Below, piece after piece: positions 7,665-30,770 of a stretch of 64,000 nt of DNA (the stretch's first letter is position 1; every line of letters starts with the position of its first letter). The translations under genes were made by a program, and so were the position numbers. Source of the stretch: an uncultured Alphaproteobacteria bacterium (GTDB lineage: Bacteria; Pseudomonadota; Alphaproteobacteria; HIMB59; GCA-002718135); assembly GCA_902614085.1 (NCBI GenBank), contig CACMJS010000001.1, positions 673,127 to 737,126 of the forward strand, read 5' to 3'. Below the pieces are notes generated by a model that was not told where the DNA came from, ran no database searches, and saw only the letters and a program-made list of their open reading frames with translations.

Positions 7665-9112
7665 ATACCGCCCATTGAAATATATTTTATAGTTAAATAG
7701 TCATCAAGACCATATCGAGAACCTTCTCTTCCCATTCCCGATTCTTTTACACCTCCAAAAGGAACCTCTGCAATTGTTGGTAGTCCATTATTAATAGATA
7801 CAATTCCATATTCAAGTGCTTCAGCAACTCGCCAAATTCTTCCTATGTCTCTCGAATAGAAATATGAAGCTAATCCATATGGAGTGTCATTAGCCATTTT
7901 AATCACCTCATCATCACTGGAAAATTTATAAAGAGGAGCAACAGGTCCAAATGTTTCTTCAAAAGTAATTTTTGCCTTTGTAGATACATTTGAGAGAACA
8001 GTTGGTTGATAGAAATTCCCACCAAGTGAATGTACATCTCCACCAATTGCTATTTTAGCTCCCGTATTTACTGCATCTTGTACATGATCAATTACTTTTT
8101 CTAAAGAGGATTGATCAATTAACGGACCAGATGTAATTCCATCCTCAAGTCCATTACCCACTGTTATTTTACTCACTTCATTTGTAAATTTCTCTAGGAA
8201 TTCATCATAAATGTTTTCATGCACAAATATTCTATTTGAACAAATACATGTTTGACCACTATTTCTAAATTTACTTTGAAGTGCGCCTGCAACAGCTTCA
8301 TCCATATCTGCATCATCGAAAACAATAAATGGTGCATGACCACCAAGTTCCATAGACACTTTTTTTACTGTTGAGGCACTTTGCTCTAAAAGTATTTTTC
8401 CAACCTCCGTAGATCCTGTAAAAGAAATTTTTCTTACAATTGGGTTACTTGTTAGCTCTTTACCAATTTCACTTGCCGATCCAGTGATTACATTAAATAC
8501 ACCATCTGGAAAACCCGCTTCTTTAGCAAGTACTGCTACAGCTAATGCTGAATATGGTGTTTGGCTTGCTGGTTTAACGACTGTCGTACAACCAACAGCA
8601 AGAGCGGCTGCACATTTTCTTGTGATCATTGAATTTGGAAAGTTCCATGGAGTTATTGCTCCCACAACACCAACAGGCTGTTTAATTATTACGATTCTTT
8701 TTCCAGGTCTTGGATCAGGAACTATATCGCCATACACTCTTTTAGCTTCTTCAGCATAGAACTCAATGTAAGAAGCGCCCATTAGTATTTCACCCTTTGC
8801 CTCAGCCAGAGGTTTACCTTGCTCAATGGTCATGATTTTAGCTAAATCATCTGCATTTTCAGTGATGAGCTCCCCCCATTTTTTAAGAATAATTGATCTT
8901 TCTTTCGCAGTAGTTTCTTTCCAAGTTTGGAAAGCAGTATTTGCATCATCTATGGCTTTTTTAGTTTCTGAAACTGAGCATTTTGGGACATTGCCAATAA
9001 TTTCCATAGAAGCTGGATTATTTACCTCAAGAGTTTCACTTGAAGAGCTGTCAACCCATTCCCCATTTATGAAACATTTTTGTTTAAAGAGTGATTTGTT
9101 ATTTAATTCCAT
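7661..9112 (-). CDS. gabD: NAD(P)-dependent succinate-semialdehyde dehydrogenase family enzyme
   Basis: Aldehyde dehydrogenase of 483 residues. VGAITPWNFPNSMI near residue 150 is the cofactor-loop region. MELGGHAPFIVF carries the general-base Glu near residue 255, and NSGQTCICSNR the catalytic Cys near residue 288. Overall it reads as the GabD/SSDH subfamily. In ectoine-utilising marine bacteria an SSDH-like enzyme (DoeC/Ssd) oxidises aspartate semialdehyde next to eut/doe genes. Its place just before the eutABC-like genes makes that role possible here. It is divergent from the amidinotransferase gene across 43 bases and overlaps the ROK stop by four bases. Confidence 0.85.
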   Translation of the reverse strand: MELNNKSLFKQKCFINGEWVDSSSSETLEVNNPASMEIIGNVPKCSVSETKKAIDDANTAFQTWKETTAKERSIILKKWGELITENADDLAKIMTIEQGKPLAEAKGEILMGASYIEFYAEEAKRVYGDIVPDPRPGKRIVIIKQPVGVVGAITPWNFPNSMITRKCAAALAVGCTTVVKPASQTPYSALAVAVLAKEAGFPDGVFNVITGSASEIGKELTSNPIVRKISFTGSTEVGKILLEQSASTVKKVSMELGGHAPFIVFDDADMDEAVAGALQSKFRNSGQTCICSNRIFVHENIYDEFLEKFTNEVSKITVGNGLEDGITSGPLIDQSSLEKVIDHVQDAVNTGAKIAIGGDVHSLGGNFYQPTVLSNVSTKAKITFEETFGPVAPLYKFSSDDEVIKMANDTPYGLASYFYSRDIGRIWRVAEALEYGIVSINNGLPTIAEVPFGGVKESGMGREGSRYGLDDYLTIKYISMGGI

Positions 9113-9155: not shown

Positions 9156-10259
9156 ATGACAATAGTTAATTCTTGGAATGAATGGGATCCATTAAAACAT
9201 GTTATAGTTGGAGCAGTTGAAAATGCTAACATACCTCCAATGGAACCAGCACTTGAACCAAAAATTAGTAAAGATAGTGGTATGGCAGGATCTCACGGAC
9301 CACGTTCAAAGGAATCAATTGATAAAGCAAATATACAATTAGAAAACTTTGTTAAAATTTTAAATTCCTTAAATATAAAAGTTGATAGACCAACACCTAT
9401 TGACTTTTCTCAAAGTATCGAGACACCCGATTGGTCTAATGACGGTATGTTTGGTTGCATGCCTCCAAGAGATGTTATTCTTACTGTAGGAAATGAAATG
9501 CTAGAGGCGCCAATGTCTTACAGATGTAGATGGTTTGAGTACCTTGCTTACAGACCACTACTTGAAAAATATTATGCAGAAGATAAAAACATGAGATGGG
9601 AATCGGCACCTAAACCAAGATTAACTAATCAATCGTATAAGTCTAATTATCTTCCTGAAGGAATAACGGAAGAAGAACGATATAAAAAAATCGAAAATAG
9701 AGACATGATATTGACAGAAATAGAACCACTTTTTGATGCAGCAGAAATTTTACGCTTTGGAAAAGATCTATTTTATCATAACAATTTTACATCAAATTTA
9801 AGCGGTTTAGATTGGTTAAGAAGACATTATCCAAATCATCGCGTACATCAAATTAATTTACCAGGTGATTTAATTCCAACTCACATTGATGCATGTTTTA
9901 CCCCTATTAAACCAGGAGTTATAATTATTAATCCGAATAGAAAAATATCATCAGAGCAAAGAAAAATTTTCGATGATAATAAATGGGAAATTCATGAGGC
10001 AGCACCTTCCATTCATAATAGCCCACCACCTATGTGTTATTCATCAATCTGGTTATCAATGAACGTTTTGATAATTGATCCTAAAACTATATGCGTTGAG
10101 GCAACTGAAGAAAAAATGATCAAACAAATGGAAAGTTTTGGATTGGATGTTATTCCAGTTCCTTTTAGAGACGTTTATGCATTTGGGGGTAGTCTACATT
10201 GTGCCACTACTGATGTTCATAGAGAGGGTGAGTGTGAGGATTATTTTCCAAATCAATAA
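9156..10259 (+). CDS. Glycine amidinotransferase-like enzyme
   Basis: Member of the amidinotransferase superfamily closest, by eye, to eukaryotic L-arginine:glycine amidinotransferase. All three residues equivalent to human Asp254, His303 and Cys407 are recognisable: LFDAAEIL (about Asp194), PTHIDA (about His243) and SLHCATTDV (about Cys349). The conserved GLDWLRRHYPNHRVHQI and SIWLSMNVLI segments are also present. The family moves an amidino group from arginine to an amine, or hydrolyses guanidino compounds. Length is 367 residues; the start has AAGGAAA upstream. The gene is coupled to the eutA-like gene by a shared base and precedes two creatinase-fold genes and a sarcosine-oxidase complex, so a guanidino substrate is plausible. 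The exact substrate is unknown. Confidence 0.8.
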   Translation: MTIVNSWNEWDPLKHVIVGAVENANIPPMEPALEPKISKDSGMAGSHGPRSKESIDKANIQLENFVKILNSLNIKVDRPTPIDFSQSIETPDWSNDGMFGCMPPRDVILTVGNEMLEAPMSYRCRWFEYLAYRPLLEKYYAEDKNMRWESAPKPRLTNQSYKSNYLPEGITEEERYKKIENRDMILTEIEPLFDAAEILRFGKDLFYHNNFTSNLSGLDWLRRHYPNHRVHQINLPGDLIPTHIDACFTPIKPGVIIINPNRKISSEQRKIFDDNKWEIHEAAPSIHNSPPPMCYSSIWLSMNVLIIDPKTICVEATEEKMIKQMESFGLDVIPVPFRDVYAFGGSLHCATTDVHREGECEDYFPNQ

Positions 10260-11014
10260 TGGATAATTTTAATCAAAATAATTTTAAAGCAAATTTACAT
10301 GATACAAACTTTTCTAGAATTGGCATAATTACACTATCAACGGATTTTACCATAGAACAGGATTTTAGAAAAATTTGCCATAATTTACCAGTTGATCTAT
10401 TTTTTAATAGGATACCTTTTTTAAATCCTCTAACTCATGAAAATTATATGAGGATGGCTGATCATCTTACAGAGACAACAAAACAAATACTACCCAATGA
10501 AAAAATACAAGTTGTAGCGTATGGATGTACTTCGGGTACTATTGAAATTGGTGAAAAAAGAATAAGATCTGAAATTTTCAAGGCTAAACCTGATGCTTTA
10601 ATTACTACACCTATTACAGCAGCTGTCAAAGCACTTAAATTGTTAAACCATAAAAAAATTGCTGTTCTTACTCCTTATCCAAAAGATGTTAATGTAAAAG
10701 TTTACAAATATTTAATTGATAGTGGATTTGAAATTAAATCATTTAGTTCGTTTAATTTAAAGTATGATTCGGAAATTGCTAAAGTTACTCATGATAGTTT
10801 AATGCAAACAATTTCCTCAATTGATTTAATAGATGTTGATAGTATTTTTGTTTCTTGTACTGCATTAAAAGTAATTGATATTATCGAAACATTAGAGTCA
10901 AAATTAAGCACAGATATCATTTCAAGTAATCAAGCTATTATTTGGGATTCATTAAGATTATCTAATATTAATCAAAAAATTGATGGTTTTGGTAACCTAT
11001 TTAAATTACATTAA
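10259..11014 (+). CDS. eutA: EutA-like Asp/Glu racemase / arylmalonate decarboxylase family protein
   Basis: Cofactor-independent racemase-fold protein of 251 residues. The two cysteine motifs expected for the Asp/Glu racemase superfamily are present, AYGCTSGT near residue 85 and VSCTALK near residue 200. In hydroxyectoine-degrading bacteria EutA of this family precedes EutB and EutC, exactly the order seen here, and is thought to act on hydroxylated diaminobutyrate stereochemistry. The start ATG overlaps the stop of the amidinotransferase. Maleate isomerase-like activity is an alternative; gene order favours EutA. Confidence 0.7.
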   Translation: MDNFNQNNFKANLHDTNFSRIGIITLSTDFTIEQDFRKICHNLPVDLFFNRIPFLNPLTHENYMRMADHLTETTKQILPNEKIQVVAYGCTSGTIEIGEKRIRSEIFKAKPDALITTPITAAVKALKLLNHKKIAVLTPYPKDVNVKVYKYLIDSGFEIKSFSSFNLKYDSEIAKVTHDSLMQTISSIDLIDVDSIFVSCTALKVIDIIETLESKLSTDIISSNQAIIWDSLRLSNINQKIDGFGNLFKLH

Positions 11015-11026
11015 ATAGGGTTTAAA

Positions 11027-11989
11027 TTGATTACACTTCAACAAATACAAGATGCACATAAGAAAATTTTACCTTATGTTAATTATACACCATTAATTAA
11101 TTCTAATTTCTTATCAAAAAATACTACAGTAAAACTAAAGTTAGAAAATTTTCAAATCACTGGTTCATTTAAGTTAAGAGGCGCTGTTAATAAACTTCTT
11201 TCTTTAAGTGAAGATGACAAAAGCAAAGGAGTCATCGCAGTCTCTACAGGCAATCATGGCAAAGGCGTTGCTTATGCTTCAAAAGTATTAGGTATTAAAT
11301 CAACAATATACATGTCTTCAATGGTACCAGAATATAGAAAAGAGGCTATTGAAAAATTAGGAGCTAAAGTAAAAATTATTGGAAAGAATAGTGATGAAGC
11401 TGATTTGTATGCTAAACAAATTGCGAAAGAAAAAAATATCCCATTAATTCATCCTTTTGATGATAAAGATATTATAATAGGCCAAGGTACAGTTGGACTT
11501 GAAATGCTTACTGAATTTCCTGAAGTTGATACAGTAATTATACCAACATCTGGTGGCGGTCTTATATCTGGAATAGCGCAAGCTATTAAACTTCAAAAAC
11601 CTAATACAAAAATTATTGCCGTATCTATGGAAAGAGGTCCTTCAATGTATGAAAGTCTAAAAGAAGGTAAGCCTGTTGATGTAGAGGAAACTGAAACTTT
11701 AGCTGATTGTTTAGGGGGTAGTATTGGTTTAGATAATAAATTTACATTTAATATTGTACAACAATACGTTGATGACTTTGTTTTAGTAAGTGAAGAAAAA
11801 ATAGCTGAGGGAATTAGAATAAATTTTTTAGAACATAAAATTGTATCTGAAGGTGCGGCAGCAACAAGTGTAATGGTTGTTAAAGAAAAATTAACATCAC
11901 ACTTAGGAAAAAATATAATTTGTTTAATTTGTGGTGGAAATATTGACTCGGAACTATTTAACAAAGTTTTAAGCCATGCTCATCCTTAA
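11027..11989 (+). CDS. eutB: EutB-like PLP-dependent threonine/serine dehydratase
   Basis: Fold-type II PLP enzyme of 320 residues. The Schiff-base lysine lies in ITGSFKLRGA near residue 50, the STGNHGKGVAYA segment near residue 82, and the glycine loop SGGGLISG near residue 180. ADCLGGSIGLDN followed by a VLVSEEKIAEG segment matches the hydroxyectoine-utilisation dehydratase EutB better than IlvA, and there is no regulatory ACT domain. The start codon is TTG. It overlaps the eutC-like gene by 14 bases. Serine/threonine dehydratase activity remains an alternative. Confidence 0.75.
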   Translation: MITLQQIQDAHKKILPYVNYTPLINSNFLSKNTTVKLKLENFQITGSFKLRGAVNKLLSLSEDDKSKGVIAVSTGNHGKGVAYASKVLGIKSTIYMSSMVPEYRKEAIEKLGAKVKIIGKNSDEADLYAKQIAKEKNIPLIHPFDDKDIIIGQGTVGLEMLTEFPEVDTVIIPTSGGGLISGIAQAIKLQKPNTKIIAVSMERGPSMYESLKEGKPVDVEETETLADCLGGSIGLDNKFTFNIVQQYVDDFVLVSEEKIAEGIRINFLEHKIVSEGAAATSVMVVKEKLTSHLGKNIICLICGGNIDSELFNKVLSHAHP

Positions 11990-12950
11990 TAAAAATGATA
12001 TTATTCAATATGTAGATTTGAATAAAAATCTCATTCCAATAATAGAAGACGCATTTAATAGTTTATCAAAGGGATTGGTAATGATGCCACCTATAATGAG
12101 AATTGATATTGAAAAATATCATGGTGAATCAGATGTTAAAGCTGCATACGTTGAAGGTCTTGATAGTTTTGCAATAAAAATTGCCTCAGGTTTTTTTGAT
12201 AATCCAAAACTTGGTTTGCCATCTAGTAATGGACTGATGGTTTTATTAGATTCAAAGACTGGAGTTGTAAAATCTGTTTTATTAGATGAAGGTTATCTTA
12301 CAGATACTAGAACAGCTATAGCAGGAGCAATAGCTACAAAATACTTATCAAATCAAAATGCTAATTCTGTCGGTATTATCGGGGCTGGAATTCAAGCCAA
12401 ATTACAACTTCAAGCAATAATGTTAGTTAGAAAAATAAATAAAATTATAGTCTGGGCAAGAGATGAGACAAAAGCGAACCAATTAATAGAAAGTTTCAAA
12501 AATTTAGATATAGATTTGTATATAGCTTCTTCTTGCAAAGAATTGGCAAGCTTATCAGAAATAATTGTTACAACGACTCCAAGTAAAAAACCGCTTTTGG
12601 AATTTGATTGGATAAATAAAGGAACTCACATAACAGCAATGGGATCAGATGCAGAACAAAAAAATGAATTAGATCCTTATATGTTAAAACATTGCGATCA
12701 ATATGTGCCTGATAATCAATTACAAACAAGTGTTTTGGGTGAATTACATCATGCTTTAAAACAAAATATAATTTCTTCCAAAGAAAAATTTAATGAACTC
12801 GGCGATATAATTAACGATCCAAGTTTAGGAAGAAAAAATAAAGAAGATATAACGATATGTGATTTGACAGGAACTGGTGTACAAGATACTGCAATAGCTA
12901 GATTTGCTTATAATCTTTGTAAAAAAAATAATTTAGGCATCAATATTTAA
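11976..12950 (+). CDS. eutC: EutC-like ornithine cyclodeaminase / imine reductase family enzyme
   Basis: NAD(P)-dependent ornithine cyclodeaminase / mu-crystallin family protein of 324 residues. The substrate-side segment DSFAIKIASGFFDNP is near residue 62, GYLTDTRTAIAGA near residue 105, and the nucleotide-binding GIIGAGIQAKLQL near residue 135. EutC in hydroxyectoine clusters has this architecture. The same family also contains delta1-pyrroline-2-carboxylate reductase, which would fit the 3-hydroxyproline-dehydratase-like gene 4 kb downstream. Both readings make it an imine reductase rather than a true ornithine cyclodeaminase. Confidence 0.75.
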   Translation: MLILNKNDIIQYVDLNKNLIPIIEDAFNSLSKGLVMMPPIMRIDIEKYHGESDVKAAYVEGLDSFAIKIASGFFDNPKLGLPSSNGLMVLLDSKTGVVKSVLLDEGYLTDTRTAIAGAIATKYLSNQNANSVGIIGAGIQAKLQLQAIMLVRKINKIIVWARDETKANQLIESFKNLDIDLYIASSCKELASLSEIIVTTTPSKKPLLEFDWINKGTHITAMGSDAEQKNELDPYMLKHCDQYVPDNQLQTSVLGELHHALKQNIISSKEKFNELGDIINDPSLGRKNKEDITICDLTGTGVQDTAIARFAYNLCKKNNLGINI

Positions 12951-12953
12951 TTT

Positions 12954-14396
12954 ATGAGTCAAGCAATAGTAAAAAAAACATCTGACTATTTCAAATCAAA
13001 AGGAGTCGTCTTACCTAGTATAAATGAACTTCAAGATCCTCAAATTATTAATGACGATATTAAAAATTCTCTAAAAAAAATTAATAATAATGATATTAAT
13101 CCTCTTAACCTTTTTCGAGTTCATTGGTTTAATAAAAGAGATCAATCAGGTTTTGGAAATGAGCCTGAATATATTGTGCTTCCAACAGAATTCACAGGTG
13201 TAAAGGCAAAGATAATTGTAAATATGGGACGATATTTTCCTTTAATAACAGCTCATAAAGTTTTGGCAGCTTATGGTTGTTTGCTTCCAAGAATATTGAA
13301 TGGCACTTTTGATTATGAAAAACATAAAGCAGTTTGGCCTTCTACAGGAAATTATTGTAGGGGTGGAGTGGCAATATCTCGGATAATGGGTCTTAATAGT
13401 ATTGCAATACTTCCTGAAGGAATGAGTAATGAGAGATTTGAATGGTTGAATAATTGGGTTGAAGATAAAAAAAATATCATAAAGACAAAAGGCACAGAAA
13501 GTAATGTTAAAGAAATCTACGATGCTTGTAATGAATTAAAAAAAGATAGTCAAAATGATATAATAAATCAATTTGATGAGTATTATAATTACGGTATTCA
13601 TCGTTCTGTAACTGGCCCATCTTTTGAAAAATCATTTCTTAGAGTTAAAGGTAGCAGTAATTTAACGCCTAGATTTTACGTAAGTGCTTCAGGATCAAGC
13701 GGTACTCTAGCAGCAGGAGATTATCTGAAAGATAAATTACAGACGAAGATTGCAGTTGTTGAAGCTTTGGAGTGTCCAACATTACTTCACGGAGGTTATG
13801 GTGAACATAATATACAAGGAATTGGTGACAAACATGTTCCTCTTATTCATAATGTAATGAATACAGATTTTGTTGTCGATGTTTCTGATCAAGCTACCAA
13901 TAATTTAAATATGATTTTTAACACTGAAATAGGAAAAAATTTTTTGATTGAGAAAAAAAATTTTGACCCTGGTTTTGTTTCTCGACTTCCTGAATTTGGT
14001 TTCTCAGCAATAGCAAATATATTGGCATCAATAAAACTAGCTAAATATATGGATTTAAATAGTGATGACGCAATTATAACGGTTGCTACTGATGGTGCAG
14101 ATTTATATATGTCAGAGTTAAACAAGACCATTGCTGATTTTAATAATAATTATGATGAAATAGTTTGTGCTGAATTATTTGGACAATACTTATCAGGAAT
14201 ATCCACTGATAATATGCTTGAACTCTCTCACATGGATAAGAAAAGAATATTTAATTTAGGATACTTTACTTGGGTAGAGCAACAAGGTGTTAGTCTTGAA
14301 GAATTTGAAAAAAGAAAAGATCAAAAATTTTGGAATTCACATTATGATTATATGCTTTCTCTAGACAATAAAATTAAAGAATTTAATAGTATGTAG
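12954..14396 (+). CDS. PLP-dependent fold-II enzyme, cysteine-synthase-like, unknown substrate
   Basis: A 480-residue member of the tryptophan synthase beta / cysteine synthase superfamily. A likely PLP lysine is in LITAHKVLAAYG near residue 102, followed by WPSTGNYCRGGVAISRIMG near residue 128 and a phosphate-cup-like VSASGSSGTLAAGDY segment near residue 245. It is longer than cysteine synthase (about 310), with extra N- and C-terminal stretches. It starts four bases after the eutC-like stop, so it belongs to the same operon. I do not know its reaction. Beta-elimination or replacement on a diamino or hydroxy amino acid would fit the context. Confidence 0.65.
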   Translation: MSQAIVKKTSDYFKSKGVVLPSINELQDPQIINDDIKNSLKKINNNDINPLNLFRVHWFNKRDQSGFGNEPEYIVLPTEFTGVKAKIIVNMGRYFPLITAHKVLAAYGCLLPRILNGTFDYEKHKAVWPSTGNYCRGGVAISRIMGLNSIAILPEGMSNERFEWLNNWVEDKKNIIKTKGTESNVKEIYDACNELKKDSQNDIINQFDEYYNYGIHRSVTGPSFEKSFLRVKGSSNLTPRFYVSASGSSGTLAAGDYLKDKLQTKIAVVEALECPTLLHGGYGEHNIQGIGDKHVPLIHNVMNTDFVVDVSDQATNNLNMIFNTEIGKNFLIEKKNFDPGFVSRLPEFGFSAIANILASIKLAKYMDLNSDDAIITVATDGADLYMSELNKTIADFNNNYDEIVCAELFGQYLSGISTDNMLELSHMDKKRIFNLGYFTWVEQQGVSLEEFEKRKDQKFWNSHYDYMLSLDNKIKEFNSM

Positions 14397-14399
14397 GTT

Positions 14400-15554
14400 A
14401 TGAAAACACAGTCATTACATAACCAATTAGTAGAATGGCGTCATGATCTACATATGCACCCACAAATTAGTTTTGAAGAAGAATATGCTGCAGCAAAAGT
14501 TTCAACTCTTTTAAAAGATTTTGGAATAGAAGTGCATTCTGGTATTGCCAGGACTGGAGTAGTTGGAATTTTAAAAAAAGGAAATAGTTCGAAATCAATT
14601 GGTATAAGAGCAGATATGGATGCTCTCCCTATACACGAAACTAATGAGTTTAGTTATAAGTCTAAGTTTGATAACAGAATGCATGCATGTGGACATGACG
14701 GTCACACTACTATGTTATTAGGAGCAGCAAAATATTTATCAGAAAAAGGTAACTTTAACGGCACAGTATATTTTATTTTTCAACCTGATGAAGAAAATAC
14801 TTTTGGTGCAAGAACAATGATAGATGAGGGCTTGTTTGATAAATTTAAAATTGATGAAGTTTACGCTATGCACAATATTCCTAACATGGAAATTGGAACA
14901 TTTGGCACTAGAAAAGGAGCAATCACAGCAAGTGAAAATTTATTTGAAATTGAAATAAAAGCTAAAGGTGGGCATGCTGCATTACCTCATATGGGCGTTG
15001 ATGCAATAACTGTCGGTTCTCAAATAGCAGTAGCACTTCAATCGATAGTCTCTAGGAAATTAAATCCAGCAGATAATGGTATAGTTTCTATTACTGAATT
15101 TATAACCGATGGTAAAAAAAACGTTCTGCCAGGTATGGTAAAAATGACTGGTGATGCAAGAGCTTTATCAAAAGAAACAAATGAAAAAATTGCATCAAAA
15201 ATGTTACAAATTGTTGAGGGCATTTGCAATGCACATGGTGTTAATGGAAGTGTTAAATATGAAACAACCTGTCCTATAACTTTTAATTCAAAAAACCAAA
15301 CTGAGTCTGCAACAAAAGCTGCAGTTTCATTGCTTGGAAACGATAAATGTAATGGTGATATTGAACCACGTTTATTCTCAGAAGATTTTTCAGTAATGGC
15401 AAATGAAAAACCTGGCTGCTTTGTTTTAATGGGTAACGGTACATCAGAGCAGCATTCCAGACCTTTACATGCTGATAATTATGATTTTAATGACGAATTA
15501 TTAGTCGTAGGTTCTTCATATTGGACTGAATTAGTAGAACAACAATTAAAATAA
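14400..15554 (+). CDS. M20D-family amidohydrolase / N-acyl amino acid deacylase
   Basis: Metal-dependent deacylase of 384 residues in the hippurate/IAA-amino acid hydrolase group. Metal-binding marks are MHACGHDGHTTMLLGAA near residue 97 and FQPDEENTFGARTMI near residue 130, with AMHNIPNMEIG following. The dimerisation-domain segment KGGHAALPHMGVDAI is near residue 190. Within this eut/doe-like operon it could play the N-acetyl-diaminobutyrate deacetylase step usually done by the unrelated DoeB/EutE, which is absent here. That role is inference; the family assignment is firm. Confidence 0.82.
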   Translation: MKTQSLHNQLVEWRHDLHMHPQISFEEEYAAAKVSTLLKDFGIEVHSGIARTGVVGILKKGNSSKSIGIRADMDALPIHETNEFSYKSKFDNRMHACGHDGHTTMLLGAAKYLSEKGNFNGTVYFIFQPDEENTFGARTMIDEGLFDKFKIDEVYAMHNIPNMEIGTFGTRKGAITASENLFEIEIKAKGGHAALPHMGVDAITVGSQIAVALQSIVSRKLNPADNGIVSITEFITDGKKNVLPGMVKMTGDARALSKETNEKIASKMLQIVEGICNAHGVNGSVKYETTCPITFNSKNQTESATKAAVSLLGNDKCNGDIEPRLFSEDFSVMANEKPGCFVLMGNGTSEQHSRPLHADNYDFNDELLVVGSSYWTELVEQQLK

Positions 15555-16712
15555 ATGTTTTCTGAAAATTTAAATAAACTTAAGAAAAAAATGTCTGAGA
15601 ATAATATTGATCTCTCAATTATAACAGATGATGACTCTATTTATTATTTTACAGGATATCATGACTTCCTTCATATGGATTTTTTTCGACCAACACTTTT
15701 AGTTGTTTCAAATGATCATAAAACTTACTTAATTACACCTCTTCTTGATGTTTTATTAGTACCAGATGATTGCCCTGTGGATACAGTCAAAACATGGAAT
15801 GATGGTATTGGAAATGAATGGAGAGAATTATTACCTCAAATTATTAATCAGCATAAAAATATTTTTATTGAAAAATTTAAAATCAATCCAATGGTTAAAA
15901 GTTATTTAGACGAATTACTTCAAGATCATCCAGGGGATTTAACCAAATTAATAGATAATATAAGAATGATTAAATCTAATCATGAATTGAATATAGCTCG
16001 GCATGCCGGCGAAGTTGGTATGGCTATGATGGAGGCAGCAAAAAAAACAATTGGCCATAATGTTCCTGAGTATGAGGTTGCACTTGCACAATCACAAGCT
16101 GGAACAAGAAAAGCTGCAGATCTTTTAAAAGAATTTTATCCTGATAATATCAATATGTCTCCAAATATTCATTTTTTGCCTGTTATGACATCGGGTCATG
16201 ATTTACCTAAAACTCACCATCGTGCTTCGACCAAAATTATACAAAAAGGTGATCCCGTATTTGTATGTTATTGTGGTTCTACAAATTTTCATAGGTTTAA
16301 ATTAGGTTTTGACAGAATATTTTGGGTAGAAGAAATTCAATCAGATGAACAAATAAAAGCTTTTGAGACTGCAGTTAAATCTCAAAAAGCTGCTCTTGAA
16401 ATTCTTGGTCCTGGAGTAACAGCTGAAGAAGTTCATGCTGCTTATGCAGATACTATACAGTCTGAGGGATACCCTTATCCTACATTTCGATGTGGAAGAG
16501 GTACAGGCTTTAGCTTTTTAGAGGAACCACAATTAGTAGTTGGGAACAAAACAGTTCTTGAGCCTGGAATGGTATTTGCTGTTGATGGCGGAGCAAGTGC
16601 AAATAATTTTAGATCACAAGTTGGTGATAGCTTTATTATAACAAAAGATGGATACGAACAAATTACACATCATTCTAAAAATATTGATGATCTAATAATT
16701 CCACATGGATGA
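15555..16712 (+). CDS. M24 (creatinase / aminopeptidase P fold) hydrolase, first paralogue
   Basis: A pita-bread-fold protein of 385 residues with an N-terminal creatinase domain (SIITDDDSIYYFTGYHDF) and a C-terminal M24 domain from about residue 135. Canonical M24 metal ligands are not all kept: the region FVCYCGSTNFHRFKLGFDR lacks the usual Asp pair, as in creatinase and ectoine hydrolase, which are metal-free. It begins immediately after the M20 stop and overlaps the next gene by 8 bases. Creatinase, ectoine hydrolase or a related C-N hydrolase are the candidates. It differs clearly from the second M24 gene at 22.9 kb. Confidence 0.72.
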   Translation: MFSENLNKLKKKMSENNIDLSIITDDDSIYYFTGYHDFLHMDFFRPTLLVVSNDHKTYLITPLLDVLLVPDDCPVDTVKTWNDGIGNEWRELLPQIINQHKNIFIEKFKINPMVKSYLDELLQDHPGDLTKLIDNIRMIKSNHELNIARHAGEVGMAMMEAAKKTIGHNVPEYEVALAQSQAGTRKAADLLKEFYPDNINMSPNIHFLPVMTSGHDLPKTHHRASTKIIQKGDPVFVCYCGSTNFHRFKLGFDRIFWVEEIQSDEQIKAFETAVKSQKAALEILGPGVTAEEVHAAYADTIQSEGYPYPTFRCGRGTGFSFLEEPQLVVGNKTVLEPGMVFAVDGGASANNFRSQVGDSFIITKDGYEQITHHSKNIDDLIIPHG

Positions 16713-17730
16713 AATCACAGTATTTAACACACATTGCTGTGGTGAAATTGGGGATGTCGTAACTGGAATTAAAGGTTTGAAGTTTAATTCACCTGAGGAA
16801 GCTTCTAAAAAACTTTTTTTAGATAAAAAATGGAGAAATTTTTTTTTAAATGAACCTCGAGGAGGGGTCTTTAAACATTGTAATATTGTTTTAGAACCTT
16901 CAAATAAAAATGCAGATGCTGGATTTGTAATTATGGAACCAGAAGATAATCCTCCAATGAGTGGATCAAATGCAATTTGTGTAACAACAGTCTTATTAGA
17001 AAAAAATATTGTTCAAATGAAATATCCTACAACCATGCTTACACTTGAAGCTCCCGGTGGTTTAATAAAAGTTGTTGCTGATTGTGAAAATAAGAAAGTT
17101 AAAAGTGTCACTTTAACTAATCTTGCCTGCTTTGCAGATAAAATAGATGTAGATTTAAAGACTAAAAATTATGGCACAATTAAAGTAAGTACCGCTTTTG
17201 GAGGTGACAGTTTTTTAATTTGTAATGCTAGTGATTTTAATCTTACAATTGAACCAAAGAATGCAAATAAATTTGTAAATGTTGCCAAAGAATTATTGAA
17301 AGAAGCAAACGCATTTATAGGATTTGAACATCCTACTATTAAAGGATTAGATTATCTTTCCTTTTGCCAATTTATTGAACCTTTAAAAAAAAATAATCAA
17401 TCATTACTTACAGGAGTAAATACAGTTGTTATACGACCTGGAAAACTTGATCGCTCACCTTGTGGTACAGGCACTTCAGCAAGATTAGCAGTAATGAGAG
17501 AAAAAAATGAAATACAAATAAATGAAGAATTTATATCAAAGTCTATTATAGGATCTACATTTAAAGCAAGTATTGAAAAGGAAATTACAATTAATAACAA
17601 AAATTGTATTATTCCAAAAATAACAGGTAGTGCATTTATTACTGGAAAACAAAGTTTATATATAGATAAGGATGATCCTTTTCCAGAAGGTTATAGATTA
17701 AATGACACATGGCCAGATTCATTAAGTTAA
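16705..17730 (+). CDS. Proline racemase family enzyme, probable trans-3-hydroxyproline dehydratase
   Basis: Proline racemase superfamily protein of 341 residues. The first catalytic position, normally the Cys of MCGH, is serine here (PPMSGSNAIC, about Ser86). The second Cys is kept in SPCGTGTSARL (about Cys253). The Ser/Cys combination is known for hydroxyproline dehydratases of this superfamily, whereas epimerases and racemases carry Cys/Cys. The predicted reaction is dehydration of trans-3-hydroxy-L-proline to delta1-pyrroline-2-carboxylate, which the OCD-family enzyme at 12 kb could reduce to proline. It overlaps the preceding M24 gene by 8 bases and is last before a 76-base spacer. Confidence 0.78.
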   Translation: MDEITVFNTHCCGEIGDVVTGIKGLKFNSPEEASKKLFLDKKWRNFFLNEPRGGVFKHCNIVLEPSNKNADAGFVIMEPEDNPPMSGSNAICVTTVLLEKNIVQMKYPTTMLTLEAPGGLIKVVADCENKKVKSVTLTNLACFADKIDVDLKTKNYGTIKVSTAFGGDSFLICNASDFNLTIEPKNANKFVNVAKELLKEANAFIGFEHPTIKGLDYLSFCQFIEPLKKNNQSLLTGVNTVVIRPGKLDRSPCGTGTSARLAVMREKNEIQINEEFISKSIIGSTFKASIEKEITINNKNCIIPKITGSAFITGKQSLYIDKDDPFPEGYRLNDTWPDSLS

Positions 17731-17806
17731 CTGTGATTAAATAACACCAGCATGGCGATTTAATTCATTTTACTTTCATCAACTATTCTAATAATTAATA
17801 AAACAA

Positions 17807-19072
17807 ATGACAAAATTTAATGCCTGGAATGTAATTAAAAACGGTTTAAATGGTCAGTCTTATTGGACTAGACAATGGCGTGATCCAGAACCAAAAAGTA
17901 GTTATGATGTTGTAATAATTGGGGGAGGTTTACACGGTCTTGCAACAGCATATTATTTAGCAAAGAATCATAATATAAAAAATGTAGCTGTCTTAGAAAA
18001 AGGCTGGATTGGTGGAGGAAACGCTGGACGTAATACAACTATTGTAAGATCAAATTATATGATGCCAGGCAACCACGAATTTTATGAACATTCTTTAAAG
18101 TTATGGGAAAATTTAAGTCACGAATTAAATTATAATGTAATGTTTAGCCAACGAGCTCATGTATCATTATTTCATAGCCCTGGTGCTAAAGATTCAGTTT
18201 CACGGATTTATAATATTATGCGACTCCATGGAACTGATGCAGAACTTTGGGATTTAAAAACTTTAAAGAAAAAAATTCCGCATTTAAATTATCATAATTC
18301 TAGATTTCCAATACTTGGAGCTGCAGTTCAAAAAAGAGCAGGCAATGCAAGACACGATGCAGTTGCATGGGGTTATGCAAGGGCTGCAGATACATTAGGT
18401 GTAGACATTCTGCAAAATTGTGAAGTTACAGGTTTTACAAGAAAGAATGGAAATATTGAAAGTATTCAAACTTCAAGAGGAATTATAAAAGGAAAGAAAA
18501 TAGGATTTGCTGTTGCAGGCAATACTTCAGTATTATGGCAAATGGCAGAATTAGGCAACCTGCCAATTGAGTCTCATAAACTACAAGCATTTGTATCTGA
18601 GGCTGTTAAGCCACTTCTAGATCAGGTTGTTGTTTACGGTGTAGGTGGTGCACATTTCTATATATCGCAGTCAGATAAAGGAAGTATGGTTTTTGGTGGT
18701 GATCTTGACTGGTATAAATCATATGCGCAAAGAGGAAATCTTCCTATGGTTCAAGATGTTGCCGAAGCAGCCATGGCAATATTTCCTTCACTTGGAAGAA
18801 TAAGATTACTTCGTCATTGGGCAGGTGTTATGGACATGACAATGGATGGATCATTTTTTATTTGTAAAACGCCGATATCTAATCTCTATTTAAATGCTGG
18901 TTGGAACTATGGGGGTTTTAAAGCAAGTCCAGCATCAGGTTGGTATTTTGCTGATTTAATTGCAAATGAAAGCCCGCATAACTACGTGCAAAATCATAAT
19001 TTAGAAAGATTTGAAAAAGGTATCAATATAGATGAACGTGGTGCAGGACCTGATCCGAAATTGCACGGTTAA
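17807..19072 (+). CDS. soxB: Sarcosine oxidase-type complex, beta subunit
   Basis: FAD/FMN-binding oxidoreductase of 421 residues with the N-terminal dinucleotide fold VVIIGGGLHGLATAYYLA near residue 36. The segment GGGNAGRNTTIVRSNYM near residue 75 is typical of heterotetrameric sarcosine oxidase beta subunits. It is first of four genes in the classical order beta-delta-alpha-gamma. Such complexes oxidatively demethylate N-methyl amino acids, passing the one-carbon unit to tetrahydrofolate. Sarcosine is the default substrate; N-methylglutamate dehydrogenase complexes share this architecture and cannot be excluded. Confidence 0.88.
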   Translation: MTKFNAWNVIKNGLNGQSYWTRQWRDPEPKSSYDVVIIGGGLHGLATAYYLAKNHNIKNVAVLEKGWIGGGNAGRNTTIVRSNYMMPGNHEFYEHSLKLWENLSHELNYNVMFSQRAHVSLFHSPGAKDSVSRIYNIMRLHGTDAELWDLKTLKKKIPHLNYHNSRFPILGAAVQKRAGNARHDAVAWGYARAADTLGVDILQNCEVTGFTRKNGNIESIQTSRGIIKGKKIGFAVAGNTSVLWQMAELGNLPIESHKLQAFVSEAVKPLLDQVVVYGVGGAHFYISQSDKGSMVFGGDLDWYKSYAQRGNLPMVQDVAEAAMAIFPSLGRIRLLRHWAGVMDMTMDGSFFICKTPISNLYLNAGWNYGGFKASPASGWYFADLIANESPHNYVQNHNLERFEKGINIDERGAGPDPKLHG

Positions 19073-19357
19073 ATGATTAGAATCAATTGTCCTTATTGTG
19101 GTGAAAGAGATCATAGTGAATTTAGTTATGGAGGAGATGCAACAATCAATTATCCTTCGTTAGATGCATCAGAGAAAGAATGGACTGAAGCTATATTTTT
19201 CAGAAAAAATATAAAAGGGTTTCAATTTGAAACATGGCATCATTCTAATGGATGTAGAATGTGGTTGGTAGTTGAACGTTCTACAGTCACTCATGAAATA
19301 AAAAGTGTCAAACCATGTCATCCGAACTTACAGAAGGTTGTAGAAAATAATAAATGA
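19073..19357 (+). CDS. soxD: Sarcosine oxidase-type complex, delta subunit
   Basis: Small zinc-binding subunit of 94 residues. The N-terminal CPYCGERDHSEFSYGGDA motif holds the cysteine/histidine zinc ligands, and HHSNGCRMWLVVERSTVTHEI closes the conserved part. It starts directly after the soxB stop and its stop overlaps the soxA start as ATGA, so the three genes are translationally coupled. Length and motifs are typical. Confidence 0.92.
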   Translation: MIRINCPYCGERDHSEFSYGGDATINYPSLDASEKEWTEAIFFRKNIKGFQFETWHHSNGCRMWLVVERSTVTHEIKSVKPCHPNLQKVVENNK

Positions 19358-22311
19358 AAACAAGAAGATTAGATAATTATGGAAAAATTAATAGAGATAA
19401 AATTCTATCCTTTAGATGGGATAAAAAGAATTACAAAGGTTTTGAAGGAGATACACTAGCATCAGCATTACTTGCAAATAATATTGGTATAGTTGGTAGA
19501 AGTTTTAAATATCATAGACCAAGAGGAATATTTTCTAGTGGAGTCGAGGAATCTGGCGCCTTAGTTACCATTGGTTCAAAAGATAGAAGAGATCCAAATG
19601 TAAGAGCAACAACACAAGAATTATATAATGGTTTGGAAGCCAGTGGTCAAAATGCATTTCCAAATGTAAATTTTGATCTAGCAGGAATAAATAATTACTT
19701 AGGTAGATTTTTTGCAGCTGGCTTTTATTATAAAACTTTTATGGGAATACCTCCATTTGAATGGGGTAGAGGGACAGCTATATGGATGTTTTTCGAAAAG
19801 TTTATTAGAAAAGCGGCGGGAATGGGAAGTGCTTCTGAGTTACCTGATCCAGATTCTTATGAACATGCTCATGATTTTTGTGATTTAATTGTTGTAGGAT
19901 CAGGACCTGCTGGTGTTGCAGCTGCAATAGAGGCAGCAGAAAAAAAATTAGATGTTATTTTAGTTGAGCAAGATAGTCTTGTTGGAGGAGATCAACTTGC
20001 AGAAAATAATTTTGATAACTCACAGATTAAAAATCAACTTGAAAATCTAGGAATAAAAATAATGACTAGAACTACTGCGTTCGGACTATATGATAATTGT
20101 GTTGTTGGTTTATTAGAGAGAGTAACAGATCATATATCAGCACCAAATGTAAACATTCCACGTCAAAGATTTTGGACTATTAGAGCAAAGCATATAATTG
20201 TTGGCGCTGGAGCAATTGAAAGACATATTGCATTTAATAATAATGATATTCCTGGTGTAATGACTGTAAATGCATCGAAGCATTATTTGAATAGATATGG
20301 TGTACTAACAGGAAAAAGAATTGCGATAGCTACAAATAATGATTCTGTTTATGAAACAGCACAACAATTATCAGAAGCTGGAGCTAATGTAACTGTTCTT
20401 GACTCACGAACTAATTTTGAAATTGAAACAAATAAATGTTTTGAAATTAGAAAAGGGTATGTGCCTTATAATATTAATGGTTCAAAAAAAATTCATAGTT
20501 TAGATGTGTCAAAAAGTGAAAATATGAATAAATCTGAAACTATAAATTGTGATCAGGTTCTATTATCAGGCGGTTGGTCGCCTGCTGTACATTTGTTATC
20601 TCACAGGGGTGTAAGGCCTAAATGGGATTATAGCAATGCTTGTTTTTTACCGAGTGACTCAAAAGAAAATATTACAATGGTAGGTTCTTCTAGAGGTTTA
20701 TGGAATAAAAATGATTGTATTGCTTCTGGGATAGCAGGAACTACAGATGCGTTGAACCGTTTAGGTATTTCTAAAACAAATTATTTTTTCCCAAAACCTG
20801 GTGGATGGAAAAATCCCATACAACCACTTTATGAAGTAAAATATAAAAAATCTAGATCAAAAAGTTTTGTAGATTATCAACATGATGTGACGACAGATGA
20901 CGTAAGACTCGCACATCGTGAAGGTTTCATTTCTGTAGAGCATCTTAAAAGATACACAACTTTAGGTATGGCAAACGATCAAGGAAAAATGGGAAATATC
21001 ATTGGATTATCTTTAATGGCTGAACTTTTAAAGAAAGAAATTCCAGAAGTTGGAACTACTGTTTTCAGACCTCCTTATACTTCTGTATCTATAGGTGCCT
21101 TAAGTGGAAGAAATGTTGGAAAACATTTTAGGCCGTTAAGAGTAACACCAATGCATCAATGGAATATTGATAATGGTGCAAAAATGATTGAAGTTGGATT
21201 GTATCAAAGGCCTTGGTATTATCCTAAAGAAAATGAAACTTTAAGTGACTCTTATATAAGAGAAGCATCAACAGTAAGAAAAACAGTTGGAATTTGTGAT
21301 ATAACATCATTAGGCAAAATTGCTATTCAAGGACCAGACTCTACCGAATTTTTAAATAGAATTTATTCGAATGGTTTTTCAAAACTACAAGTTGGAAAAG
21401 CTAGATACGGTATCATGTTGCGTGATGACGGTATTGTAATGGATGATGGCACATCTTGGAGATTAGCAGAAAATGAATATTTTATGACTACGTCTACAGG
21501 TGAAGCTGCAAAAGTGATGTCATGGTTAGAAGAATTACTTCAAACTAGATGGACAGATCTTAATGTTAATGTGACAAGTGTTTCTGAACAATGGGCAGGC
21601 GTATCAGTTGCAGGACCTAAATCTAGAGAAGTTCTCAATAATTGTGTCGATGATTCTTTGGTTATAACTAATAATAACTTACCTTTTATGGGTGTTACTT
21701 CAACATTTCTTAAAGGTAATATTCCTTGTAGAATTGCTAGAATTAGTTTTTCAGGTGAATTAGCTTTTGAAGTTTATGTCAAATCAGATTTTGCTAATAC
21801 AATGATGGACCTACTTTGGGAAAATGCAAAAAAATATGATGGATGTTTATATGGATTAGAAGCTTTAGGTGCACTTAGAGTTGAAAAAGGTCATGTAACA
21901 GCCGCTGAGCTTGATGGAAGGGTAACAATTGATGATGCAGGTTTAAGCAAAATGGCTTCTACAAAAAAATCATATATTGGAAGCGCAATGAGAAAACGAG
22001 GAGTATTAAAAAATAATGATCGAGAAATTCTAGTAGGTTTCTTTCCAACAAACTTAAAAGAAACTTTTAATGCTGGAACTATTGTCTGTGAAAAAAATAA
22101 TATTAAAGGACAGGGTATCGGAAGAATTACCTCAGTTACTTATTCTCCTGAACTTGGACATTGGATTGGATTAGGTTTTGTCAAAGGTGGTTTAGATAAA
22201 TGGAAAGATACCAATTTAGTTGGGGCAGATCCTGTAAGAAATAAACAAATGAATTTAAAAGTTGTTTCACCACATATGATTGATCCTAAAGGAGAACGAA
22301 TGTATGCATAG
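19354..22311 (+). CDS. soxA: Sarcosine oxidase-type complex, alpha subunit
   Basis: Large subunit of 985 residues, close to the family length. The N-terminal ~90 residues form a ferredoxin-like domain (FKYHRPRGIFSSGVEE). A FAD/NAD-binding pyridine nucleotide oxidoreductase domain follows from about residue 175 (DLIVVGSGPAGVAAAIEAAE). A GcvT-type tetrahydrofolate-binding domain occupies about residue 600 to the end (REASTVRKTVGICDITSLGK at about 635, YGLEALGALRVEKGH at about 845). The GcvT part captures formaldehyde as methylene-tetrahydrofolate. The 3' end overlaps the gamma subunit gene by 8 bases. Confidence 0.92.
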   Translation: MKTRRLDNYGKINRDKILSFRWDKKNYKGFEGDTLASALLANNIGIVGRSFKYHRPRGIFSSGVEESGALVTIGSKDRRDPNVRATTQELYNGLEASGQNAFPNVNFDLAGINNYLGRFFAAGFYYKTFMGIPPFEWGRGTAIWMFFEKFIRKAAGMGSASELPDPDSYEHAHDFCDLIVVGSGPAGVAAAIEAAEKKLDVILVEQDSLVGGDQLAENNFDNSQIKNQLENLGIKIMTRTTAFGLYDNCVVGLLERVTDHISAPNVNIPRQRFWTIRAKHIIVGAGAIERHIAFNNNDIPGVMTVNASKHYLNRYGVLTGKRIAIATNNDSVYETAQQLSEAGANVTVLDSRTNFEIETNKCFEIRKGYVPYNINGSKKIHSLDVSKSENMNKSETINCDQVLLSGGWSPAVHLLSHRGVRPKWDYSNACFLPSDSKENITMVGSSRGLWNKNDCIASGIAGTTDALNRLGISKTNYFFPKPGGWKNPIQPLYEVKYKKSRSKSFVDYQHDVTTDDVRLAHREGFISVEHLKRYTTLGMANDQGKMGNIIGLSLMAELLKKEIPEVGTTVFRPPYTSVSIGALSGRNVGKHFRPLRVTPMHQWNIDNGAKMIEVGLYQRPWYYPKENETLSDSYIREASTVRKTVGICDITSLGKIAIQGPDSTEFLNRIYSNGFSKLQVGKARYGIMLRDDGIVMDDGTSWRLAENEYFMTTSTGEAAKVMSWLEELLQTRWTDLNVNVTSVSEQWAGVSVAGPKSREVLNNCVDDSLVITNNNLPFMGVTSTFLKGNIPCRIARISFSGELAFEVYVKSDFANTMMDLLWENAKKYDGCLYGLEALGALRVEKGHVTAAELDGRVTIDDAGLSKMASTKKSYIGSAMRKRGVLKNNDREILVGFFPTNLKETFNAGTIVCEKNNIKGQGIGRITSVTYSPELGHWIGLGFVKGGLDKWKDTNLVGADPVRNKQMNLKVVSPHMIDPKGERMYA

Positions 22312-22867
22312 ACATTCTGCACTAGAAACAATTTATAAGGTTGGAAAATATTCATCAAGCGAGAAACAATCTCTAACATTTAAAGAATTAAAAAGTTTAG
22401 AAATTTTGCAAATTGCCTGTTGGCCTGACAAAATTGATGAAATGAATAATTTACTGTCAAAAGAACTAAAAATTAAAAATATTCCTAGTTTTAATAAAGG
22501 GATAATATTTGAAAATAAATCATTATGGAGAATGGAACCTTTGAAATGGTGGCTATTTAATAAAGAAATTGAAATAAGTGAGCAAATCGCAACAATTTTA
22601 GACATGTCTCATGCTTTCACAGGTATTGAAATATCAGGAGATAATTCATCATTATTTTTAAATAGACATCTTCCAATTGATTTAAGACCTAGGAATTTTC
22701 CAGATTTATCTTCTGCTAGCACAGCCATTCATCATGTCAGTGTTAAGTTATTTAAAATATCCTCTAATAATTACTGTCTATATATACCAAGAGGTTTTGC
22801 CTTATCAATTTGGGAGATCCTTCTTGAAACAGCAGATCAGTTTGGATATGAAGTATTAGAGAGATAA
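22304..22867 (+). CDS. soxG: Sarcosine oxidase-type complex, gamma subunit
   Basis: Gamma subunit, 187 residues from ATG 22304. That start is preferred over an in-frame TTG at 22280 because GGAG lies ten bases before it and the overlap with soxA is only 8 bases. The fold is GcvT-like; ISEQIATILDMSHAFTGIEI, RHLPIDLRPRNFP and HHVSVKLFKISS are recognisable SoxG segments. Sequence divergence is high, as usual for this subunit, and position in the operon gives much of the confidence. Confidence 0.85.
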   Translation: MHRHSALETIYKVGKYSSSEKQSLTFKELKSLEILQIACWPDKIDEMNNLLSKELKIKNIPSFNKGIIFENKSLWRMEPLKWWLFNKEIEISEQIATILDMSHAFTGIEISGDNSSLFLNRHLPIDLRPRNFPDLSSASTAIHHVSVKLFKISSNNYCLYIPRGFALSIWEILLETADQFGYEVLER

Positions 22868-22886
22868 AGAGATTATCTAAAAAATT

Positions 22887-24062
22887 ATGATTTTTTCACA
22901 AGAAGAATTTAATTCAAGAATTGCAAAAGTAAAACAGTCTATGAGTAAAAGAGGTGTTGATATTCTATTAACTACTGATCCCTCTAATATGAATTATCTC
23001 ACTGGCTATGATGGATGGTCATTTTATGTTCCACAAGGAGTAATAATTTCTATAGATGAAGACCAACCTTTTTGGTTTGGAAGAAAGCAAGACTCGAATG
23101 GTGCAAGGATCACAACCTATTTAAATGAGGAAAATATATTTGGTTATCCTGAGCATCTTATTCAATGTCCGCCATTACACCCATATGATTATGTAGTACA
23201 ATTGTTCAAAGATAAGAAGTGGTCAGATAAAAATATTGGTGTAGAAATGGATAGCTACTATTATACTGCAGAAAATCATAAGAGATTAAAAGATAATTTA
23301 ACAAATGCCAATTTTATTAATGCTCATCTTTTAATTAACTGGGTCAGATATATAAAATCTGAAAAGGAAATACAGTATATGAAAGATGCTGGAACATTAG
23401 TTAAAGCAGGAATGCAAACAGCATTTGATTCAATAAGAGAAGGTGTAAAACAAAGCACAGTTGCTGGAAAAATTCAAAATACTCTTATTGCTGGAAATGA
23501 AACTACACAAATGGGGGGAGAATATTCAAGCTTAGGCATAATACTTGCAAGTGGTCGGTCTGCATCTGCATCACACTTAACACCTAGTGATAAAAAATTT
23601 GAAAATAATGAGGGAACAATAATTGAATTAGGTGGTGTTAAGCATCGTTATCATTGTCCTTTATCTAGAACTGTATATGTAGGTTCACCTGATCCAAAAA
23701 CATCCGATACATTGAAAGTAACTAATGAAGGTATTGAAAAAGCGCTCGATCAAACAAAGCCAGGAAATACTTGCCATGATGTTGCCACTGCTTTCTGGGC
23801 TGTATTGGAAAAATATGGATTAGAAAAAGAATCACGAGCTGGATACTCTATTGGTATTGGTTATCCTCCTGATTGGGGCGAACACACATTTAGCATTAGA
23901 AAAAATGAAAAAACACTTTTAGAGTCTAATGTTACTTTTCATCTTATGTGTGGAATGTGGATGGATACATGGGGGTTAGAACTAAGTGAGTCAGTTAGGG
24001 TGACGGAAACTGGTTATGAGCTACTTACAAATGTACCTAGAGATTTGCATATAGTAAATTAA
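22887..24062 (+). CDS. doeA: DoeA/EutD-like ectoine hydrolase (M24 fold), second paralogue
   Basis: Creatinase-fold protein of 391 residues. The N-terminal stretch TDPSNMNYLTGYDGWSFYV and the C-terminal YPPDWGEHTFSIRK and HLMCGMWMDTWGLELSESV strongly resemble ectoine hydrolase DoeA/EutD, which opens the ectoine ring to N-acetyl-diaminobutyrate. Metal ligands of true aminopeptidases are not evident; IELGGVKHRYHCPLSRTVYVG replaces them, again as in DoeA and creatinase. It sits 19 bases after soxG and overlaps the convergent DUF3726-like gene by four bases. Creatinase activity is the main alternative, given the adjacent sarcosine oxidase genes. Confidence 0.75.
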   Translation: MIFSQEEFNSRIAKVKQSMSKRGVDILLTTDPSNMNYLTGYDGWSFYVPQGVIISIDEDQPFWFGRKQDSNGARITTYLNEENIFGYPEHLIQCPPLHPYDYVVQLFKDKKWSDKNIGVEMDSYYYTAENHKRLKDNLTNANFINAHLLINWVRYIKSEKEIQYMKDAGTLVKAGMQTAFDSIREGVKQSTVAGKIQNTLIAGNETTQMGGEYSSLGIILASGRSASASHLTPSDKKFENNEGTIIELGGVKHRYHCPLSRTVYVGSPDPKTSDTLKVTNEGIEKALDQTKPGNTCHDVATAFWAVLEKYGLEKESRAGYSIGIGYPPDWGEHTFSIRKNEKTLLESNVTFHLMCGMWMDTWGLELSESVRVTETGYELLTNVPRDLHIVN

Positions 24063-30760: not shown

Positions 30761-30770
30761 GGAGGTTACT

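Follow-up and report, generated by a model that had tools for sequence, protein, structure and literature searches.

Which compounds are broken down by the thirteen genes at positions 9156-24062 of the window (the whole 64,000-nucleotide stretch of contig CACMJS010000001.1 analysed here), and does one substrate pass through them or several? The host assembly, from an uncultured alphaproteobacterium of a group that we take to be HIMB59/AEGEAN-169, measures 1.65 Mb and is 96% complete. The island joins an amidinotransferase (AGAT family) to EutA-, EutB- and EutC-like enzymes, a second pyridoxal phosphate (PLP) enzyme named E5, an M20 hydrolase, two M24 proteins, a proline-racemase-superfamily enzyme and a sarcosine oxidase (A1 to M13, Table 1). 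It is real, conserved and modular. Judged from its gene content, it most likely serves guanidino, N-methyl and beta-hydroxy osmolytes sharing one transcript. The reading favoured here is a modular osmolyte-scavenging operon, in which a fixed AGAT-EutABC-E5-M20 core is combined with exchangeable cargo so that several nitrogen-rich osmolytes enter on one transcript; we give it about an even chance of being right.

All thirteen frames are open and lie on the forward strand, as an earlier note on this DNA had stated, and they nearly touch: the gaps are at most 19 bp, except for 76 bp before soxB. In gene order the first seven gaps are -1, 12, -14, 3, 3, 0 and -8 bp and the last five 76, 0, -4, -32 and 19 bp, the K11/L12 value being -32 as first called and -8 with the SoxG start set to the ATG at 22304. 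The succinate-semialdehyde dehydrogenase (SSADH) gene A0 diverges from A1 at a distance of 43 bp. This spacing suggests that the island forms an operon or a single regulon. Neighbourhoods of family relatives were fetched because they hold the amidinotransferase; 31 of the 40 span at least 19 kb, and the nine shorter ones, which meet contig ends, were left out of the counts. The order of the island recurs across these loci and is more than a chance arrangement; gene-neighbourhood conservation was among the checks that the earlier note had proposed. The core from A0 to F6 (SSADH, AGAT, the EutA/B/C-like genes, E5 and M20) is complete in 31/31 long loci. In the tail, G7 is found in 28 of the 31, soxB in 27, H8 in 26 and M13 in 10, these distal counts being low because L013 ends just past G7 and L015, L016, L018 and L021 end before the M13 site. 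The earlier note had named independent occurrence of the genes in relatives as the outcome that would speak against it: the core is kept together, and it is in parts of the tail that presence varies.

The variation in the tail takes several forms. The segment G7-M13 is replaced in three of the 31 long loci (L017, L033, L035) by a Pot-type ABC transporter, DAO and a GlnT-like gene following F6, and the H8 gene is absent from L042, L003, L067 and L093. Transporter genes sit at three different island sites in relatives. In L013, B2 and C3 are separated by an Ehu-type transporter together with other genes; such genes come after B2 in L014, whose contig stops short of C3. In L015, L016 and L018, the Ehu-type genes are inserted between D4 and E5 and are preceded by a gene of 764 aa, which in L015 encodes a molybdopterin oxidoreductase. 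Two further M24 proteins, 24-26% identical to M13, are encoded just before the EutB-like gene in each of two loci (L013:5781-8113 and L115:5674-8051). At the level of 110 family genomes, A1-type AGAT is present in 89 and E5 in 84; both occur in 80, AGAT alone in 9, E5 alone in 4 and neither in 17, and in 74 of the 80 the two genes share a contig within 20 kb. DoeA-like M13 at no less than 65% identity was found in 48 genomes and in 39 of the 89 AGAT-positive ones, many of them partial; the set of 48 omits G108 (55%, which would give 40/89) as well as G103 and G104 (27-29%, both AGAT-negative). DoeA-like matches at E <= 1e-30 occur in 51/110 genomes.

For the core, G7 and E5 we infer the following chemistry from sequence. 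The amidinotransferase would exchange the amidino group of a guanidino acid with an amine, on the arginine/ornithine side, and would keep the guanidino nitrogen as arginine. Acting on a beta-hydroxy alpha-amino acid, the EutA/B/C-like enzymes would carry out isomerisation, dehydration and re-reduction and so yield the deoxy amino acid; such a sequence has been proposed for products of 5-hydroxyectoine. F6 would deacylate a diamino acid. The free diamino or beta-substituted acid would then be cleaved by E5, which takes a slot held elsewhere by diaminopropionate ammonia-lyase, while A0 would oxidise a semialdehyde. In the tail, G7, a metal-less relative of creatinase, may release an N-methyl amino acid, which SoxBDAG would demethylate to an amino acid and methylene-tetrahydrofolate (CH2-THF); H8 and the DoeA-like M13, where present, would admit hydroxyproline and ectoine-type rings. 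Through these core and cargo steps several nitrogen-rich osmolytes could enter one transcript.

The guanidino theme of the island is real. Among the nearest amidinotransferases from outside the family are two whose genes adjoin creatinase directly, in SAR11-sized genomes. The A1 patterns PRD, FDAA, HID, WLSMN and GG-x-HC occur in 95/95 full-length loci (63 distinct proteins; motif counts here and below are per locus, and some genes were fetched twice), and the Arg of the NxR site is present in 8/8 aligned rows. The roles of the catalytic Cys/His/Asp and of the other AGAT residues are assumed by us.

The first M24 protein, G7, carries C238, G251, R315, D344 and G357 where alignment to 1pv9 places the five prolidase metal ligands (D, D, H, E, E), whose positions in 1pv9 we take as given; these five residues are invariant in 13 aligned G7 proteins. 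In the full alignment with creatinase, for which the L196 protein was used, the His and two Glu that we presume to be the active-site residues of creatinase align with His221, Asp253 and Asp344, so that G7, unlike creatinase, has Asp at both Glu positions; it keeps the creatinase F-x-R-P motif. Profile scores were 153 bits for prolidase, 143 for creatinase and 96 for DoeA, and prolidases ranked above creatinase in each of four PDB searches made with the whole or partial G7 sequence, one of which also gave a partial creatinase alignment. The first G7 motif (R-P or R-A, then T) occurs in 107/110 loci and the remaining motifs in 110/110 (82 distinct proteins); the predicted structure has a mean predicted local distance difference test (pLDDT) score of 50.4. 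Neither G7 nor E5 passes any curated function model. A DoeA-like assignment of G7 was rejected (21% identity to rhizobial DoeA; 55-57 bits with DoeA models whose cut-offs are 575-613). Both hydrolases that the earlier note called creatinase-fold are M24 pita-bread proteins; the DoeA-like label holds only for the second, M13, and the first belongs to a separate family.

E5 is the least known part of the island and is not named in the title of the earlier note. Its AlphaFold2 model (mean pLDDT 85.5) superposes on O-acetylserine sulfhydrylase (OASS), the cysteine synthase, at Z 32.5 (root-mean-square deviation 2.7, 314 residues aligned). Among the best 50 fold matches listed, only OASS-type and cystathionine beta-synthase-type enzymes appear; diaminopropionate ammonia-lyase is absent from these, which excludes nothing. 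Unlike cysteine synthase, with which it shares about 22% identity, E5 has 480 aa and falls below the curated cysK cut-off (71 bits versus 351). AHKVL was found in 130/133 loci and PSTGNYCRGG in 133/133 (95 distinct proteins), and the closest match in named genomes, 100% identical over 480 aa, comes from a contig of the closely related isolate AG-893-M20. The role predicted for E5 follows from its position near M20, where other loci have a diamino-acid lyase. Outside the family 25 E5 loci were read (23 plus two annotated plasmids). An arginase-family gene lies beside or near E5 in 4/25 (L057 and L131 by Pfam, L056 and L060 by clustering), CoA-transferase-type genes in 4/25 (L055, L058, L059 and L062 by clustering, L058 also by Pfam), AGAT in 1/25 (L126) and M20-G7-Sox in 1/25 (L139); the tables of the two plasmids, which are incomplete, list no arginase or AGAT.

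H8 belongs to the proline-racemase superfamily, and PPMSGSN and RSPCGTG occur together in 80/81 loci (55 distinct proteins), the second motif being unmatched in one. According to eLife.03275 (2014), a solved epimerase carries Ser/Cys and a solved dehydratase Ser/Thr, and a neighbouring MLD2/Ldh_2 gene predicts the dehydratase pathway. H8 resembles the enzymes of trans-3-hydroxy-L-proline/4-hydroxyproline catabolism in its superfamily and in the Ldh_2 (MLD2) gene that adjoins it in L019 and L115; unlike hydroxyproline loci, the window lacks an Ldh_2 gene in the interval from H8 to soxB, and unlike the solved trans-3-hydroxyproline dehydratase, H8 has Ser/Cys. Because of this pair, the hydroxyproline dehydratase of the earlier note stands as to superfamily and is not secure as to reaction, and a secure 3-hydroxyproline dehydratase was rejected; the H8 score also lies below the model cut-off (Table 1). 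The sarcosine oxidase is of the heterotetrameric type, with SoxB, SoxD, SoxA and SoxG and a folate (GCV_T) domain in SoxA, which scores 2 bits under the TIGR01372 cut-off. The window copy of SoxG had no Pfam hit and is identified by its position and by homology in relatives.

Beyond the family, a class sample of 288 genomes holds E5 in 10, G7 in 15, AGAT in 8 and creatinase in 35 (creatinase query at 1e-90; p values uncorrected for kinship and genome size). Creatinase accompanies G7 in 13/15 genomes versus 22/273 others (p 1.2e-11) and AGAT at 60% identity or more in 4/5 versus 31/283 (p 8.5e-4), two of the four sharing a genus; G7 is found with AGAT in 3/8 (p 0.0055). Plasmid loci of Roseovarius pelagicus and Aminobacter (L159, L160) resemble the island in G7, an AMDase (arylmalonate decarboxylase)-fold gene, SoxB/D/A, M20 and a PALP lyase, and carry an Ehu-type transporter. 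Unlike the island, they hold an annotated diaminopropionate ammonia-lyase in the E5 slot, and no AGAT, EutB or EutC appears in the stretches read; the Roseovarius locus differs further by a Rieske gene. Within L159:1353-22267, two M24 genes, AMDase, Sox, the Rieske gene and the lyase stand beside the transporter. A Rhodospirillales contig unites G7, AMDase, SoxB/D/A, M20 and E5; neither AMDase nor Sox lies beside G7 in L166 and L167, and L168 has AMDase and no Sox among the matches.

Several observations weigh against the core-and-cargo operon. In the class sample, E5 occurs with creatinase in 0/10 genomes, with G7 in 2/10 (p 0.089) and with AGAT in the window genome only; the place of E5 in the proposed chemistry therefore rests on neighbourhoods. 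Most family genomes are partial, which lowers the presence counts, and the 76-bp gap before soxB could hold a promoter. G7, moreover, is probably not simply a creatinase: since 13 of the 15 G7 genomes also hold a true creatinase, it likely acts otherwise.

Among the alternatives, a divergent ectoine/5-hydroxyectoine locus is unlikely. It would have EutABC and M13 open and deoxygenate the ring, M20 replace DoeB, A0 act as DoeC and the remaining genes be passengers. The island shares with the eutABCDE/doe clusters of S. meliloti, R. pomeroyi and H. elongata the order EutA-EutB-EutC, a DoeA-like M24 gene and an SSADH next door, and some relatives have EhuABCD-type transporter genes within the island. 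Eut clusters and proposals for EutABC are treated in PMC5924519 and PMC13188858. B2 is 38% identical to Leisingera EutA, D4 49% to rhizobial EutC and A0 43% to a partial (189-aa) Ssd of the rhizobial eut cluster. In a tree of 19 proteins, seven HIMB59 C3 and five EutB proteins form a group with support of 99/97 that excludes threonine dehydratases and BhcB; C3 is drawn as sister to EutB (EutB alone 80/73), with several outer rows on long branches. M13 scores 376 bits against solved DoeA, is 45% identical to rhizobial DoeA and shares with it the motifs RYHCPLSRT and YPPDWGE. Unlike the rhizobial and Leisingera proteins, however, B2, C3 and D4 score under the ectoine equivalog cut-offs, D4 passing one of its two models, that of a related cyclodeaminase; as controls, Leisingera EutA and rhizobial EutB, EutC, DoeA (811 bits) and DoeB (610 bits) all pass their own. 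The DoeA-like gene is optional (39/89 AGAT-positive genomes) whereas EutBC is constant in long loci. No EutE/DoeB (TIGR02994) exceeds its cut-off in 110 family genomes, where weaker matches in 17 genomes reach at best 220 bits versus 403, none of them in the window genome; 14 control genomes likewise had none over it. The island is for this reason not filed as an ectoine locus. EhuB at E <= 1e-25 has no match in the window genome and is found in 8/110 relatives, five over cut-off, in 8/8 cases on the AGAT contig at 3.8-7.6 kb (five of these eight loci were read directly). This linkage of EhuB to AGAT counts in favour of the core-and-cargo operon. AGAT, E5, G7, H8 and SoxBDAG are additions to the eut/doe set, and AGAT and Sox have no role in the described pathway.

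A creatine/creatinine-type pathway, in which creatine or a closely related compound would be hydrolysed to sarcosine by G7, the sarcosine demethylated by Sox and guanidinoacetate handled by AGAT, seems quite improbable. It draws on SoxBDAG and on the membership of G7 in the M24 superfamily, with its F-x-R-P motif and His/acid/acid pattern, on the G7-Sox linkage in Roseovarius, Aminobacter and the Rhodospirillales contig, and on two SAR11-sized genomes of one genus (G376 and G295; 1.2-1.3 Mb, single contig). In G376 an AGAT of 61% identity directly follows a true creatinase (544 bits versus solved creatinase), and in G295 AGAT directly follows a creatinase 80% identical to the G376 protein; in G368 and G382 the two genes lie on different contigs. 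The two adjacencies also count in favour of the core-and-cargo operon. SAR11 genes for the use of glycine betaine and creatine are reported to be enriched in the Red Sea (PMC3686209). Against this pathway, G7 is 24% identical to creatinase, scores slightly better with prolidases and co-occurs with true creatinase elsewhere, EutBC and E5 are left unexplained, and at E <= 1e-60 none of the 110 family genomes yielded a bona fide creatinase, although the same query detects it in 35 of the 288 class genomes at 1e-90; for want of a creatinase the island is not filed as creatine catabolism. The passage of one compound through all 13 steps, which the earlier note offered as one option, is very improbable: the tight co-directional spacing speaks for it, but the downstream genes are separable, G7-M13 being replaced as a block or lost singly, and transporters enter at three sites. 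Its other option, several osmolytes sharing one regulon, fits the constant core and variable tail, the regulon being suggested by gene spacing. Least credible, at only a slight chance, is a biosynthetic cluster for a guanidinylated small molecule. SxtG, HsvA and inosamine-phosphate amidinotransferase, whose roles we take to be biosynthetic, are among the AGAT relatives of solved structure, and AGAT in L195 lies just before serC- and serA-like genes; yet Sox, M20, SSADH and the uptake transporters of relatives are catabolic, and the models scanned identify no synthetase or exporter among the 13 genes.

The favoured modular operon may also be framed more boldly, as an undescribed HIMB59/AEGEAN-169 system in which a new metal-independent hydrolase (G7) and a new CysK-fold lyase (E5) work with an amidinotransferase in the catabolic direction, so that guanidino/N-methyl osmolytes would be dismantled and the amidino group salvaged as arginine, not urea; this we regard as possible and rather doubtful. 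The family assignments mostly agree with the eut-like, doeA-like, guanidino and N-methyl parts named earlier. In agreement with the earlier note, no pathway with exactly this set was found described in the open-access literature searched, most subscription papers lying outside that scope. To our knowledge, little is known of the dissolved organic nitrogen diet of AEGEAN-169/HIMB59. The island points to concrete candidate substrates and to two enzyme families without assigned function (G7, E5), and it connects amidinotransferase with creatinase in genomes of SAR11 size. In the South Pacific Gyre the group made up as much as 6% of cells (PMC11366302), and the main text of a 2023 clade genome paper (PMC10308909) contains none of the terms ectoine, creatin-, sarcosine, amidino- or hydroxyproline.

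Table 1. Genes of the island and the divergent gene A0, with the main basis of each assignment
Gene and assignment	Position	Strand	Basis
A0 succinate-semialdehyde-type aldehyde dehydrogenase (DoeC/Ssd-like)	7661..9112	-	TIGR01780 731 bits, over cut-off
A1 arginine:X amidinotransferase (AGAT family)	9156..10259	+	solved AGAT 1jdx 265 bits
B2 EutA-like / arylmalonate-decarboxylase-fold isomerase	10259..11014	+	TIGR02990 211 bits, cut-off 318
C3 EutB-like PLP dehydratase	11027..11989	+	NF005680 379 bits, cut-off 413
D4 EutC-like ornithine-cyclodeaminase-fold imine reductase	11976..12950	+	NF006141 453 bits, cut-off 408; TIGR02992 414 bits, cut-off 472
E5 480-aa fold-type-II PLP enzyme, CysK fold	12954..14396	+	AlphaFold2 model, OASS superposition
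F6 M20 amidohydrolase/deacylase, distantly DoeB2-like	14400..15554	+	TIGR01891 320 bits, over cut-off; DoeB2 314 bits, cut-off 550
G7 metal-less pita-bread (M24) hydrolase, creatinase-related family	15555..16712	+	alignments, F-x-R-P motif
H8 proline-racemase-superfamily enzyme (3-/4-hydroxyproline), Ser86/Cys253	16705..17730	+	NF047722 415 bits, cut-off 550
I9 SoxB, sarcosine oxidase beta	17807..19072	+	TIGR01373 606 bits, over cut-off 529
J10 SoxD, sarcosine oxidase delta	19073..19357	+	PF04267 106 bits
K11 SoxA, sarcosine oxidase alpha, GCV_T folate domain	19354..22311	+	TIGR01372 1162 bits, cut-off 1164; PF01571, PF17806
L12 SoxG-like gamma subunit, start at ATG 22304	22304..22867	+	position and homology in relatives
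M13 EutD/DoeA-like ectoine-hydrolase homologue, optional cargo	22887..24062	+	TIGR02993 470 bits, cut-off 613

Other features of the window and of the loci read may be recorded here. After the island, on the opposite strand (24059-26409), lie V1 (DUF3726) and V2 (no Pfam hit), a pair present in many relatives; relatives of V2 and V3 (40-46%) lie near E5 in L061. Further on, 28334-39583 holds a Pot-type ABC transporter, DAO, two aldehyde dehydrogenases, a GlnT-like synthetase and an iron-type alcohol dehydrogenase, the binding protein and DAO being named by Pfam and the rest by eye. This block resembles the transporter-DAO-GlnT block that replaces G7-M13 in L017, L033 and L035. In two loci of SAR11-sized genomes (L196:6809-9147 and L197:7376-9712), creatinase is directly followed by amidinotransferase, and in L196 a GntG/threonine-aldolase-type PLP gene comes next. 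Finally, tandem ABC permease genes at 51063-51929 and 51931-52770 are 87% identical over 279 aa and lie beside genes that, by eye, are amino-sugar-like.

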